Shown here: piece after piece, positions 4,705 to 9,956 of the stretch
Layout: each line of letters opens with the position of its first letter
Position numbering within the stretch: the stretch's first letter is position 1
Virus record (IMG/VR): IMGVR_UViG_3300020411_002168
Location: 1 to 31,100 of that record
DNA from: a virus
Direction: 5' to 3' (one strand)
Length of the DNA: 31,100 bases
Position numbers and translations under genes: made by a program
Notes under the pieces: generated by a model
Databases searched by the model: none
Told to the model about the DNA's origin: nothing
Seen by the model: only the letters and a program-made list of their open reading frames with translations

Positions 4705-5997
4705 ATGAAAGCACTTTATCCCAAGCAGGGGGAAGCCGCCGACTTCTTCCTTAGCGTCCTAATGGATGGTGGCAACACCATTGACACATCAAGTGTCGGG
4801 ACAGGCAAAACTGTTGTTGCTGCTGAACTAGCATACCAGCTAAACCAGCCAGTAGCTGTCATCTGCCCCAAGGCGATTATCCCAAGCTGGGAGCGTGAAC
4901 TGGAAGAATTTGGTGTAACCCCTGAGTTTGTTCTCAATTACGAAAAAATCAGGACGGGTAAAACGCCTCACATGACAAAGCGGGGTAAAAAAATAATGAA
5001 GTGGCATCTCCCGAAAGATACGCTGGTCTTTGTTGATGAAATCCACAAGTGTAAGGGACCATACACACAGAATGCACAACTTGTTATCTCATTGGTTCAG
5101 CAGGGGTATCAAGTTCACGGAATGAGTGCGACAGCTTGTGAGGATCCTACTGAGATGAGAGCCATCGGTTACCTCTTAGGTTTACACAACTTAAACAAAA
5201 GCGATGGTGAAAAGAAAAATTGGTACTCATGGATGCTTGCCAACGGCTGCGCTCAGGATCAGTGGAACCAATGGAGACTTTTAAGTCGCTCCAAGCTAAC
5301 TGCTGTAAAAGAATCTATTTATGGGATTAACGGATACCGCTTAACGGTGGCGGACTTTCCTGACTCTTTTAGAGCAAACCGTGTTTTTATTGAACCCGTG
5401 CAATTTGCTGACTCCAAGAAAATCATAAAGGCATATGACGACCTTGGCATCACCCCAACAATCATTCAGGAATATATTGAGCAAGGCTCAGTTACAGAAA
5501 GTGAGCATATTTTAGTAAACCTTCTCCGTGCTAGAATGCTAGCTGAAAGCTTTAAGACACCCTGTATTGCTGAACACGCGGAAGATTTAGTAAGCCAAGG
5601 CAACTCTGTTGTGATATTCCTTAACTTTAGAGAGAGTATGGACGCCTTGTGTGAACGGCTTAACTGCCGACGGATTGATGGGGGGCAGACTGCTAAGGAA
5701 AGGCAGTGCGTAGTTGATGCTTTCCAGGCGGATGAACTGCATGTTATTGCCGTCAACACAGCAGCTGGTGGTGTTGGGTTGTCACTCCATGACACCCATG
5801 GTAACCGTCAAAGGATAAGTCTTATAAGCCCTTCCTTTTCTGCTAAGGACCACTTACAAACCTTGGGTCGCATTCACCGTAACGGAGCCAAATCGGATGC
5901 ACTACAGAAGATTCTCGTGACCGCAGACTCCATTGAGGAAAACGTCATGAAAGCAATTAACAAAAAACTCAGAAATTTAACTGCCTTGCACGGATAA
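4705..5997 (+). CDS. SF2 DNA helicase / ATPase
   Basis: A 430-residue superfamily 2 helicase. Motif I is SSVGTGKT (29-36), motif II is VDEIH (about 110-114), motif III is GMSAT (about 139-143), motif V is NTAAGGVGLSL (about 350) and motif VI is GRIHRNG (about 388). The layout, with a DEIH box and a compact second RecA-like domain, resembles phage DEAD/SNF2-type helicases that remodel forks or recombination intermediates. It follows the resolvase after 45 bases, and the two may process branched DNA together. No Shine-Dalgarno sequence precedes ATG 4705. Direction of travel and substrate cannot be told from sequence. Confidence 0.92.
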   Translation: MKALYPKQGEAADFFLSVLMDGGNTIDTSSVGTGKTVVAAELAYQLNQPVAVICPKAIIPSWERELEEFGVTPEFVLNYEKIRTGKTPHMTKRGKKIMKWHLPKDTLVFVDEIHKCKGPYTQNAQLVISLVQQGYQVHGMSATACEDPTEMRAIGYLLGLHNLNKSDGEKKNWYSWMLANGCAQDQWNQWRLLSRSKLTAVKESIYGINGYRLTVADFPDSFRANRVFIEPVQFADSKKIIKAYDDLGITPTIIQEYIEQGSVTESEHILVNLLRARMLAESFKTPCIAEHAEDLVSQGNSVVIFLNFRESMDALCERLNCRRIDGGQTAKERQCVVDAFQADELHVIAVNTAAGGVGLSLHDTHGNRQRISLISPSFSAKDHLQTLGRIHRNGAKSDALQKILVTADSIEENVMKAINKKLRNLTALHG

Positions 5998-5999
5998 TT

Positions 6000-6081
6000 T
6001 AGGCTTCAGGACTAGAGTCGTAGGAGAGCTACGGACAGAGGTTGTTTATGTTGTTCCTCGTCATTTAACACCTGGAGCCTA
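6000..6081 (+). ncRNA. Structured RNA leader (three-way junction) before nuclease gene
   Basis: The gap between the helicase and nuclease genes folds by eye into a three-way junction. The outer stem is 6000-6010 with 6071-6081 (11 pairs, one G-U). Hairpin 1 is CGTAG/CTACG (6019-6023/6029-6033). Directly adjacent is hairpin 2, GAC, bulged A6037, GAGG (6034-6041) with CCTCGTC (6056-6062) and a 14-base U-rich loop. The outer stem contains GGAG (6074-6077), the only purine-rich candidate ribosome site before ATG 6092. Hairpin 2 recurs before the DNA polymerase gene. The pairings are seen; the regulatory role is inferred. Confidence 0.5.
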
Positions 6082-6091
6082 CCTATTTAAA

Positions 6092-7210
6092 ATGAAAGAC
6101 ACACCAGACCACACAAGTAGAGACCACGCGGAATTTAGTCCGTCATCGTTGAAGTATGTTGCAGCCTGTTCTGGCTATAATGGTCGGTCAGGCACAAGTG
6201 CCGCCGCTGAGAAGGGAACCAGGATTCATGAAGCCTTGGAGATTAGGGACTACTCCGCGCTCCATGATGAGGAAGAGATGGACATCTATGAGCGGATTGT
6301 TCGAGATGAAGAAGAATTCCTTAACACTATTATTGGTGATGCAGAGCGAACCGAATACAATGAGGTTGTTGTAGACGTAACCTTAGATGGAACAAGCACT
6401 TGGGGAACTTGTGACCGTCTAACAATCTACGGTAACAAGGCAGTCATGGGGGACTATAAGACCGGGATCAGTGTTATAGATACACCTACAGAGAATTGGC
6501 AAGCCAAGGCTTACACAGCAGGGGCTTTCCAAAAATTTCCTAAGTTAGACGAGATTATATTTGTTTTCTACATTCCTGTGCGAGACGAGGTTCTTCACGG
6601 TAAGTTTACGAGAGATGACCTCCCACAACTCATTAAGGACTTGTCATATGTCATCAAGTCAGGTGAGTTGATCAGACCCCAATGGGAAGATGGAACCCCT
6701 GACTTGGATAAGCTCTCGCCCAACATAAACTGCCGGTTCTGCGCTTACGAAGAACGCTGCCCCGCGCTAGGAGCAATTGCTATTGAAGTAGCCAATCGTG
6801 TTGCTGAAAACACACTGCCTAAAACGGATATCGTGGATCCTGAAGACCCTGAGACATTGGAACAGTTATGGTCTGTAGCTAAAATTGTTACTAATTGGGC
6901 TACACGGATTAAGGCGAAAGCTATAGCAATGGCCAAGGATGGCACGGAATTCCCTACCCTAAGATTGCGCTCAATGGGGGCTTCCAGGAAGTGTATAAAC
7001 AATCAAAAGCTACTGGAAATAGCAGACTCTTTTGACATGGATCATGAAGAAATTGTAAAACTAGCATCTTTTCCCTTGAAAAAAATATCAGAGGCTGTAG
7101 GTAAGTCCGCCCCAGATGGCGAAAAAGGCCAAGTTGCCAGAGATTTTATGGATGCCGTAGAAGAGGCAAACATAATAGAAAAATCGGATACGAGATTCAC
7201 TCTATCCTAA
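6092..7210 (+). CDS. Cas4/RecB-like PD-(D/E)XK nuclease (DUF2800-like)
   Basis: A 372-residue nuclease. The catalytic core shows an Asp in TCDRLTI and GDYKTG (about 120-125), the D-x-K of the PD-(D/E)XK fold. One Cys near the N-terminus (C26) and three in NCRFCAYEERC (about 214, 217, 223) match the iron-sulphur cluster layout of Cas4, AddB and DUF2800 proteins. Such proteins process DNA ends in phage recombination and replication. In many phages a DUF2800 gene lies just upstream of a DUF2815 gene and a family A polymerase, and the order here is similar. The start ATG lies 10 bases after the closing stem of a structured leader. Confidence 0.85.
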   Translation: MKDTPDHTSRDHAEFSPSSLKYVAACSGYNGRSGTSAAAEKGTRIHEALEIRDYSALHDEEEMDIYERIVRDEEEFLNTIIGDAERTEYNEVVVDVTLDGTSTWGTCDRLTIYGNKAVMGDYKTGISVIDTPTENWQAKAYTAGAFQKFPKLDEIIFVFYIPVRDEVLHGKFTRDDLPQLIKDLSYVIKSGELIRPQWEDGTPDLDKLSPNINCRFCAYEERCPALGAIAIEVANRVAENTLPKTDIVDPEDPETLEQLWSVAKIVTNWATRIKAKAIAMAKDGTEFPTLRLRSMGASRKCINNQKLLEIADSFDMDHEEIVKLASFPLKKISEAVGKSAPDGEKGQVARDFMDAVEEANIIEKSDTRFTLS

Positions 7211-7240
7211 ACAGAGAAATAGTAAATATAGTATAAACAG

Positions 7241-7894
7241 ATGCCAAAAGCAGTAGAAAAGAAAAAACAGGAAGTAGTAGAAGTGGAAACACAAGAACTA
7301 ACAGAGGCCCCTAAGTGGCAAGTCACAGCGGATGATATTGATATCCCCCGCCTTAATATTAAACAGAAGTCCTCGCAGTTTGATGCAGGTGAATTTGGGT
7401 CTCTTGTCAGTGAGAAGACTCATGTTATCCTAGATCCGGGCGAGTCAACGGAAGTTATCGTAGTTAACGTCATGAAAGCTTGGCGGGAATTAACTGACTT
7501 CGGGGGAGAGAAAGGGCGTGTAGCCTATACTGAAGAGGCATACAAAGACCTTGCTAGCGATTCAGAACACGATGTGATCGAATTTGCTGACATAACCATG
7601 CTCTTCTCGAAACCTGATGGTGGTGACGAGACAGCATATCCTTTTCCAATAGGGGATAAGTTTTACTCCATGGGTAAGCTGGATGTCTCAAAGGGAGCCT
7701 ATAGAAATACCTTCAAGAGGCTGGCAACCTTTGCGGCGTTTAACCCCGATGTTCCATTGACCCAAAAGTTGTGGACGTTCAAAACGGAACTCCTTACTAG
7801 GGGCCAGGTAGCATGGTATAGCCCGTCACTTACAATCGCTGTCGGGGATGCCCCTAAAGCTGTTGTAGACTTCATGGACAAATTCACCTCTTAG
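7241..7894 (+). CDS. Hypothetical protein; possible ssDNA-binding protein
   Basis: A 217-residue protein that I do not recognise directly. The N-terminus is charged (KKKQEVVEVETQE) and is followed by a mixed beta-rich body (HVILDPGESTEVIVVNVM, WYSPSLTIAV). No nuclease, ATPase or zinc motif is visible. The neighbourhood is suggestive: the gene sits between a Cas4-like nuclease and a DNA polymerase, where DUF2815-type single-stranded DNA-binding proteins often occur. Unlike classic SSBs, its C-terminus is not acidic. The ssDNA-binding role is inference from position only. The start ATG follows an A-rich leader with no Shine-Dalgarno sequence. Confidence 0.6.
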   Translation: MPKAVEKKKQEVVEVETQELTEAPKWQVTADDIDIPRLNIKQKSSQFDAGEFGSLVSEKTHVILDPGESTEVIVVNVMKAWRELTDFGGEKGRVAYTEEAYKDLASDSEHDVIEFADITMLFSKPDGGDETAYPFPIGDKFYSMGKLDVSKGAYRNTFKRLATFAAFNPDVPLTQKLWTFKTELLTRGQVAWYSPSLTIAVGDAPKAVVDFMDKFTS

Positions 7895-7898
7895 GGAT

Positions 7899-8108
7899 AT
7901 GGATAAATCGTCTAAAGAAATAGAAGTAGTTGGAAAGCACATCCAAGAATTGGAAGGTCTACAAAATGAGTATGCTGAGAAAATAGCATTGCTTGATAGC
8001 CAACGAAATGACTTTTCAATCCTTATTGAAGCCCTCAAGAAGGAGAAATCCTTCTTAGAAGGTATAGAAACACAAGCTCCGCTTGAGCTAGCGGATGCTG
8101 AGTCTTAA
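7899..8108 (+). CDS. Small coiled-coil protein
   Basis: A 69-residue protein, almost entirely a predicted helix with heptad-like hydrophobic spacing (VVGKHIQELEGLQNEYAEKIALL). It starts five bases after the upstream stop and has AGGG four bases before the ATG, one of few ribosome-site-like sequences in the operon. Small coiled-coil proteins beside phage replication genes may bridge partners or regulate them, but no function can be assigned here. Confidence 0.65.
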   Translation: MDKSSKEIEVVGKHIQELEGLQNEYAEKIALLDSQRNDFSILIEALKKEKSFLEGIETQAPLELADAES

Positions 8109-8114
8109 AAATCC

Positions 8115-8181
8115 GGCGTGTACACCGCCAGCCCCAACGGCTACTGAGGTCTTATGCTTTCTTCCTCGTAGCTGTTGGGGC
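8115..8181 (+). ncRNA. Structured RNA leader before DNA polymerase gene
   Basis: A short hairpin GGCG/CGCC (8115-8118/8126-8129) is followed one base later by a long hairpin. Its lower stem pairs 8131-8144 with 8168-8181 (14 pairs, one G-U). Above a single bulged T8145 lie GAGG (8146-8149) and CCTC (8164-8167), closed by a 14-base U-rich loop. The 3' arm contains TTGGGG, the only ribosome-site-like run before ATG 8193, so the hairpin could hide it. The layout parallels the RNA at 6000-6081. It recalls, by analogy only, the translational operator of T4 gene 43. No T-tract follows, so a terminator is unlikely. Confidence 0.55.
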
Positions 8182-8192
8182 AACTTATATAC

Positions 8193-9956
8193 ATGAATAC
8201 CTATGCCCTAGATTATGAGTCCTATTACGACAAGGACTGCTCCATAAAGAAGCTTGGTCCAATGGGGTATTTTAATCACCCCAATTTTGACGCATACTTA
8301 ATGAGCGTTGTTGGGGACGAGGGGACCAAATGGGTAGGTCACCCCAAGGATTTTGATTGGGAAAAATTAAAGGGGCAGCGCGTGTTATCCCACAACGCAT
8401 CCTTCGATGAGACCCTCTACCTTCTTGGTGTAAAGAAAAAGTGGTGGCCAAATGTCGATTATGCAGAATGGCATTGCACTGCGGACATGGCTGCTTTCTG
8501 TGGCTTGCCTAGATCCTTGAAAGGGGCTACTACTGAGCTATTTGACCTGGAAGTTGATAAATCAACACGGGACAACATGAATGGGAAAAGCTGGCAAGAC
8601 ATGCCAGAAGACTTTAAAAAGGAAGTAAGTGAGTATGCATTAAAAGATTCTGAACTATGTCTGAGGTTGTGGGAGGCCCTTGAGAAAGAGTGGCCCCAAA
8701 GAGAGAAAGATATAAGTGTAGCGGGGCGCAGGATAGTGCAACGGGGCATCCCTATTGATTTAGAACTTCTAAAGAAACAGAAGGAGTCTGTTTCACAACT
8801 ACTGTTTGATTCAGAAAACAGAATTCCTTGGATCGAAGAAGCGCCACCACTTTCAAGAAAGGCATTTAACGAAGAGTGTCGGCGGTTGAATATTGAGCCT
8901 CCAGCTAGTTTGGCACTATCAAGTGAGGAGGCAAACGAATGGATAAATAAATATGGTAAGGAGTATGCTTGGATCGAATCTGTTAGAGACTACCGGCGCA
9001 TCAATGCCCTTAAAAGGAAATTAGAAGCCTTTGATTATGCGACATTATCTGACAGCCGCTTTTATGGTGGACTAATGTATCACGGGGCGCACACAGGACG
9101 GTGGTCTGGATCCGGTGGAAACCTTAATCTTCAGAATCTCCCAAGGGGTGACCTCTTCGGAACAAATTTAAGGAGTCTTATCTCCCCTAAACCAGGCAAC
9201 AAACTTATCGTCGCAGACCTGTCTCAAATTGAAGTTAGGACGTTGGCTTGGCTCTCCAAAGACAAGGCCGCCTTACATACAATTGAGACCAGTGCGGACA
9301 TATACGAAGGATTCGCCATCCACTTTAGACAATGGGACCCAAAGGGGGATTCCTCTTTAAAGGATAAAGACCCCAGCTTGCGACACAAGGTAAAACAAAT
9401 GGTTTTAGGTTGTGGCTATGGGGCTTCCCCCGCAAAGTTCGCAATAATGTCAGGACTCCCACTTTGGGAATCCAAAATATCTGTGATGATCTACCGAAAG
9501 CATATGGGCGGGGTCGTTAAGTTTTGGAATGAATTGTCAAGGAAGATGCACATGGCATACAGCAAAGGGGAAGAATTGGTATTCCCCCTGCCTTCTGGGC
9601 GCTCTTTGAATTATGGAAAAATAACGACTGCCCTGCAAAAAGGAAAGCGTAACTACATATCCATGGTTACAAAAGGTTCCAAGAAGATACCCGTAAGACT
9701 CTGGGGTGGTCTCTTGGCAGAGAACCTTTCTCAAGCATTAGCTCGCTGCATATTTGCTGATATGCTTCTTCGGGTAGAGAGCTTGGGTTTAAAAATAATT
9801 TTCCACGTCCATGATGAGCTTATCATAGAGTGCAAAGAAGGGGACGCGGAAGAAACACTAAGAAGTGTAATTGAAAGCATGTCCACTCCTCCTGACTGGA
9901 TACCGGATATTCCATTAAAGGCAGAGGGCAAAATACTAGATAGATATGAAAAATGA
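8193..9956 (+). CDS. polA: DNA polymerase I, family A, with 3'-5' exonuclease
   Basis: A 587-residue replicative polymerase from ATG 8193; a TTG at 8175 would start inside the leader hairpin and is less likely. The exonuclease shows DYE (D7, E9), NASFDE and YALKDSELC. The polymerase shows motif A DLSQIEVR (about 341), motif B R397-HKV-K401 to YG410 and motif C HVHDE (about 538). No 5'-3' exonuclease domain is present, as is usual for phage PolA. The residue matching E. coli Phe762 is Leu405. It overlaps the next gene by four bases (ATGA), so polymerase and primase-helicase are translationally coupled. Confidence 0.97.
   Translation: MNTYALDYESYYDKDCSIKKLGPMGYFNHPNFDAYLMSVVGDEGTKWVGHPKDFDWEKLKGQRVLSHNASFDETLYLLGVKKKWWPNVDYAEWHCTADMAAFCGLPRSLKGATTELFDLEVDKSTRDNMNGKSWQDMPEDFKKEVSEYALKDSELCLRLWEALEKEWPQREKDISVAGRRIVQRGIPIDLELLKKQKESVSQLLFDSENRIPWIEEAPPLSRKAFNEECRRLNIEPPASLALSSEEANEWINKYGKEYAWIESVRDYRRINALKRKLEAFDYATLSDSRFYGGLMYHGAHTGRWSGSGGNLNLQNLPRGDLFGTNLRSLISPKPGNKLIVADLSQIEVRTLAWLSKDKAALHTIETSADIYEGFAIHFRQWDPKGDSSLKDKDPSLRHKVKQMVLGCGYGASPAKFAIMSGLPLWESKISVMIYRKHMGGVVKFWNELSRKMHMAYSKGEELVFPLPSGRSLNYGKITTALQKGKRNYISMVTKGSKKIPVRLWGGLLAENLSQALARCIFADMLLRVESLGLKIIFHVHDELIIECKEGDAEETLRSVIESMSTPPDWIPDIPLKAEGKILDRYEK

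Follow-up and report, generated by a model that had tools for sequence, protein, structure and literature searches.

A predicted three-way-junction RNA family of phages, and a separate polymerase hairpin, in two leaders of one replication operon

Do two leaders of a phage replication operon that carry similar hairpins belong to one regulatory element? The operon lies in a 31.1-kb phage record of the IMG/VR type (G000), referred to here in its entirety as ‘the window’. It reads rightward, and includes, on the plus strand, genes for a helicase (4705–5997), a PD-(D/E)XK exonuclease (DUF2800; 6092–7210), an uncharacterized ORF that is SSB-like by position only (7241–7894), a small ORF (7899–8108), and a family A DNA polymerase (8193–9956); a primase-type protein is also encoded. 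The polymerase ORF is listed from a TTG at 8175, and the start that agrees with relatives is the ATG at 8193. A preliminary description held that ‘leader A’, upstream of the exonuclease, and ‘leader B’, upstream of the polymerase, share an identical bulged hairpin, and proposed that a phage protein might bind both. The two hairpins are present as it described them. In leader A, GAGG (6038–6041) and CCTC (6056–6059) enclose the loop TTGTTTATGTTGTT, with A6037 unpaired; in leader B, GAGG (8146–8149) and CCTC (8164–8167) enclose the loop TCTTATGCTTTCTT, with T8145 unpaired. Both leaders also fold better than their shuffled versions (z −2.8 for A and −5.7 for B).

The identity of the two designs, in contrast, does not rise above chance, whether judged by hairpin counts, loop shuffles, relatives or cross-searches with models. 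The plus strand of the window holds 157 perfect hairpins with 4 bp and a 14-nt loop, and in 14 of them a single unpaired 5′ base is joined by two or more further pairs. The loops of A and B are identical at 7 of 14 positions, a score that 54% of the shuffles of one loop equal or beat. The pattern GAGGT-N8..16-TTCCTC occurs twice against 0.11 expected, for a pattern picked after both sites had been seen. The GAGG/CCTC hairpin with its 14-nt loop is absent from all the close relatives of leader A (the third stem is GCAG...CTGC in L002, CAG...CTG in L005 and TGGG...CCCA in L016), and the bulge of leader B is gone in L002 and L005, where the stem is a continuous UGAGG/CCUCA. A covariance model of leader B, run on the window, matches B and finds nothing at leader A; likewise, of the models of the two leaders, neither matches the other element. 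We regard leaders A and B, with high confidence, as unrelated. The earlier idea of a conserved RNA fold, with stems that differ and still pair, holds for each leader separately, for covariation is present in the homologs of both (111 sequences for A and 12 for B), and fails for the two as one element: relatives keep the fold of leader A without the GAGG/14-nt hairpin, and that of leader B without the bulge.

A single phage protein that binds the bulged hairpin in both leaders thus has in its favor their sequence resemblance in this one genome; with that resemblance at chance level, the hairpin lost in relatives of both leaders, and no cross-match between the two models, such a protein is scarcely credible. 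Because A and B are not one element, and differ in relatives and in models, a common operator that balances nuclease and polymerase synthesis finds no support either. Nor does masking of a ribosome site by the outer stem: most genes of the window (gene starts on both strands, 3069–30230) have no Shine–Dalgarno (SD)-like run, a pattern that suggests non-SD initiation in the host of this phage. SD sequestration by leader A in particular was rejected for this reason, and because the basal helix (P1) of its relatives has no such run.

Leader B alone could be an operator specific to the polymerase. It is a long stem–loop (8131–8181, plus strand), the stem of which (8131–8149 with 8164–8181) carries the conserved loop UCUUAUGCUUUCUU (8150–8163). 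The core of the loop is UGCUUUC, and GCUUUC is invariant in 12 aligned relatives; 96.5% of the stem is paired across the 12 sequences, and in 8 of the 12 lower pairs both partners vary. Close relatives keep the element as GAGG-UCUUAYGCUUUCUU-CCUC, and a fuzzy search upstream of polymerase genes found the loops UUUCAUGCUUUCAU, UUUAUGCUUUCU and UUUUUGCUUUCU on quite different stems of 17–18 bp. A simple regex scan missed bulged members, and a covariance model was used instead; it matches, once in each genome, about 20 polymerase leaders (E < 1e-9) and, more weakly, leaders in L016, L013 and L018. In every case the hairpin adjoins a DNA polymerase gene, and in homologs it stands immediately before it. 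Of the U tract that would follow the GC stem of an intrinsic terminator, the signs are mixed: one follows on the 3′ side in L005, L044, L045, L049 and L053, and none in the window. Leader B is probably a control hairpin for polymerase synthesis that is recognized through its loop; the loop would be a protein-binding site, and the bound protein would control, or mark, the initiation of polymerase synthesis. The DNA polymerase genes of phages T4 and RB69 have an operator hairpin with a conserved loop near the gene start. Leader B resembles it in its conserved loop and in its position, and is unlike it in having a 17–18 bp stem, a U-rich loop of 12–14 nt, a polymerase of family A and, as yet, no known binding protein. 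Beside leader B lies a small GGCG/CGCC hairpin (8114–8131) that, on the minus strand, has a T run and scores as a terminator; a short hairpin resembling it occupies this position in L002.

Leader A proves to be a three-way junction, a member of what we term ‘class A’. It occupies 6000–6081 on the plus strand, beginning 2 nt past the helicase stop codon, and is matched by the class A model at E 4e-16, the window copy being one of the sequences from which that model was built. The basal helix, P1, pairs 6000–6010 with 6071–6081, and all 11 of its pairs show compensatory changes; it stops 10 nt short of the exonuclease start codon (6092). Next comes J1/2, ACUAGAG (6011–6017), which is near-invariant in 111 sequences (CAUGGUG in the second subtype, described below), conservation that the search patterns partly fixed, but that is also seen in most of the 16 sequences that came from the model only. 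P2 (6018–6034) is a 6-bp hairpin with the loop GAGAG (6024–6028); 95% of its alignment cells are paired, and 6 of 6 pairs covary. J2/3 is AC (6035–6036; 98% conserved). The hairpin of the preliminary description is P3 (6038–6059), the variable part: it is swapped for other stems or loops in L002, L005, L016, L045 and others, and every relative departs from it in both sequence and length of the loop. The circle is closed by J3/1, AUUUAACA (6063–6070; family consensus AUUGAACA), in which AACA is 98–99% conserved and which covaries with J1/2. The closest relatives keep this frame (P1, ACUAGAG, the GAGA hairpin P2, AC, a variable P3 and AUUGAACA). For class A at large, the layout is a variable P1, J1/2 A(A/C)UAGAG, P2 (6 bp, capped by GAGA), AC, a variable P3, and J3/1 UUGAACA, about 80 nt in all.

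Relatives of leader A came from a tblastn-confirmed scan with the exonuclease (39 IMG/VR loci), and from pattern scans of IMG/VR, which found the class A frame in unrelated loci; one such scan gave many chance matches, which were removed by inspection. The covariance model of class A, built from 20 sequences, and that of leader B were calibrated in shortened form, and their E-values should be read accordingly. The class A model made at least 43 matches in 73 loci, including some copies selected by no pattern, and at least 100 in the next 95 loci; counts from both large scans of the virus collection are lower bounds. In the 20 sequences, 17 of the 21 pairs change on both sides, and in 58 and in 111 sequences, all 21 do. 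Among 111 distinct sequences, 87.5% of the structure is paired, against 52.8% after shuffling, and the covariation score is 0.869, against 0.216 when shuffled and at most 0.137 when slid. Fitting to the model, as was done for the alignments of 58 and 111 sequences, favors the structure; the 20-sequence alignment, made with plain MAFFT, already gives 87.7% paired against 60.6%. Every one of the top 18 mutual-information pairs is a proposed class A pair. Conservation of several core bases was partly imposed by the search patterns; the 16 model-only sequences mostly keep A-N-U-A/G-G at J1/2, GAGA (GAAA once), AC and AACA.

Covariation extends beyond the three helices. Alignment columns 20–129 and 16–128 covary, outside P1–P3, the combinations at these two junction column pairs being A.G, A-U, U-A and A-U, G-C, G.G. 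The core exists in two subtypes that change in concert: J1/2 UAGAG goes with J3/1 UUGAACA, and GCAUGGUG with UGAAACA. Leader A of the window is subtype 1. A scan for subtype 2, in which the rare J1/2 form GCAUGGUG was specified and the matching J3/1 bases were left free, gave at least 70 matches confirmed by the model; among the matches listed, 69 of 70 sequences with G16-U20 carry G-A at the matching J3/1 positions. The change in J3/1 could also be described as an indel shift; either way, the core change is concerted.

P2 contains many U-G pairs and almost no C-A, a pattern expected of RNA, so that the molecule is most probably an RNA in the sense of this strand. The alternative is that class A works as folded single-stranded DNA, for example as a replication origin or primase site. 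Such a role would agree with its presence at, mostly, one locus per genome, often in replication operons. We consider it very improbable, since U-G pairs are kept without matching C-A, the strand of class A follows that of the upstream gene, tandem copies occur, and some copies precede terminase or portal genes or tRNAs.

Rfam 15 gave no match, at E-values up to 5–10, to leaders A and B of the window, nor to 12 + 12 other loci representing both subtypes of class A; no known Rfam ribozyme is matched. No description of class A was found in the full text of openly accessible journal articles, the literature that the search covered. From the comparative evidence, class A is almost certainly a real, previously undescribed RNA family.

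Class A is present in 27 of the 30 virus records searched, as one copy, a tandem pair, or at two sites, and usually as a single copy or pair. In L007, L013, L018, L023 and L026, it is missing at the exonuclease and present elsewhere in the genome. Tandem copies, a few nucleotides (up to about 20) apart, occur in at least eight groups (e.g. L073, L105, L090, L114, L128 and L203). One carrier is a virus record of 407 kb. Among named phages, Ayaqvirus S45C18 (AP013544), which has class A before its RNA polymerase gene, alone matched a class A query; queries from the other groups matched none. A strict pattern found nothing in 84,980 cellular genomes. A looser pattern found 13 stretches in cellular assemblies, and the nine of these that score well lie mostly on phage- or prophage-like contigs. 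The apparent hosts are diverse: Verrucomicrobia, Acidobacteria, Armatimonadota and gammaproteobacterial bins. No protein family is common to all carriers (BLASTP, 23 phage records; the best family reaches at most 12), and two records that lack class A encode the same protein families as carriers. A dedicated phage protein partner was rejected on these two counts.

The genes that follow class A are a mixture. By PHROGs, their products include RNA polymerase, DNA polymerase, exonuclease, RuvC, RecT, excisionase-like proteins, terminase subunits and portal; in L037, L039, L155 and L161, it is class A instead of leader B that precedes the polymerase. Some copies sit between convergent genes. In four loci class A lies 2–7 nt 5′ of a tRNA on the same strand, and a tRNA of any kind occurs in just 13 of 217 loci. 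Where the neighbors differ in strand, class A follows the upstream gene 29 times and the downstream gene 10 times (p 0.003, from automatic ORF calls and uncorrected for phylogeny). The RuvC group has its start codon within P1, and the 5′ arm compensates; in the RNA polymerase and exonuclease groups, P1 ends 2–10 nt before the start codon. An intrinsic terminator was considered and rejected, a U tract after P1 (at least six T in 10) being present in just 16 of 129 cases. Three further observations concern individual groups. In a large group of phages (L064, L118, L132, L212 and similar loci), class A lies ~120–390 nt upstream of a short, conserved ORF (MKDIDKLL..AMPFWQGC), and the leader in between may hold further structure. 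In a sister group (L112, L115, L156 and L163), it lies ~265–286 nt before an SbcD-like exonuclease (phrog_284). And in L265 (969–1630), where there are several phage tRNAs, class A of subtype 2 precedes tRNA-Lys by 2 nt, and another, degenerate copy that resembles class A (E 8.5e-4) lies further along.

What might such an RNA do? Because it has no common gene and no common partner protein, and stands in varied positions (5′, 3′ and in front of tRNAs), we favor a self-contained element that acts on its own RNA at the level of the transcript, a tentative proposal, plausible without being probable. The junction core (J1/2, the P2 GAGA loop, AC and J3/1) would fold into a compact site, and this site would cleave the transcript, or block nucleases or polymerase, at the gap in the operon; no dedicated phage protein would be needed, whatever gene follows. 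The single version that we favor is a candidate self-cleaving ribozyme or processing site. Among the specific readings we rank self-cleavage or processing first, guardedly, then capture of a host factor, and then a riboswitch. In its fullest form the proposal is rather doubtful: class A would be a small, natural self-cleaving ribozyme of a new class, in two core subtypes, with which a wide range of marine and other phages process polycistronic messages and tRNA precursors. Counting against a self-acting element are the tandem pairs, which are typical of riboswitches, and the single copy per genome, which also suits a trans-acting RNA.

Binding of a host factor by class A would also agree with its presence as a single copy, or a single tandem pair, in each genome, in unrelated phages that share no partner protein, and in any intergenic position, including before untranslated tRNAs. 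RNA polymerase, an RNase, or a ribosomal or defense protein might be bound, in cis or in trans, with class A as antiterminator, stabilizer or decoy. This is possible, though not likely: with apparent hosts so diverse, such a factor would need very wide conservation, and convergent 3′ positions are unsuited to antitermination.

In a riboswitch, a ligand would stabilize P1 and so cover the start of the downstream gene, and the start codons in or near P1 in the RuvC, RNA polymerase and exonuclease groups suit such a translation switch. Class A has the conserved, multi-stem, aptamer-like core and covarying helices of a riboswitch, occurs in the tandem arrangements noted above, and has two core subtypes, as riboswitch variants do. 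It is not, however, a consistent 5′ leader of functionally related genes, being found before mixed genes and tRNAs and between convergent genes, and it has no regular terminator or SD platform. We judge this reading unlikely.

Known phage RNAs offer partial parallels to class A. The put RNAs of phage HK022 are pairs of stem–loops at operon starts that are believed to need no phage protein for their action. Class A is proposed to be alike in the latter respect, and differs in being a three-way junction that is also found at 3′ ends. The glnA riboswitch candidates sometimes occur in tandem, as class A does. Like manA, wcaG and glnA/Downstream-peptide, riboswitch candidates of marine origin and of phages (PMC2864571), class A is a structured intergenic RNA of phages; those three, however, are Rfam families, none of which matches class A, and class A has no fixed type of downstream gene. 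Separately, one phage record that holds class A (L263) also has a sub-threshold manA match at 2547–2727 (36.4 bits; gathering threshold, 55.2). The HDV-like theta ribozymes of gut phages, the cleavage site of which is at the 3′ end of tRNAs, are likewise small structured phage RNAs found beside tRNAs and elsewhere in the genome (PMC10879173). Class A, unlike them, is a three-way junction on the 5′ side of tRNAs, with most copies distant from any tRNA; where tRNAs are close, they lie 2–7 nt 3′ of class A, rather than ending within 5 nt of a cleavage site.

Class A, then, is an RNA of ~80 nt found in unrelated tailed phages that have no single protein in common, usually at one locus per genome. 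A near-invariant core on stems that are free to vary, with no common protein, marks an RNA that is active in its own right, by catalysis, by binding a ligand, or by capturing a universal host factor. Neither Rfam 15 nor the open literature searched contains class A, yet it is abundant in the virus collection, where our counts are lower bounds. What is new here is the RNA family; its function may show it to be a new ribozyme or a new riboswitch, and in that sense a newcomer to a known kind of RNA, and being short, it is open to direct work in vitro.
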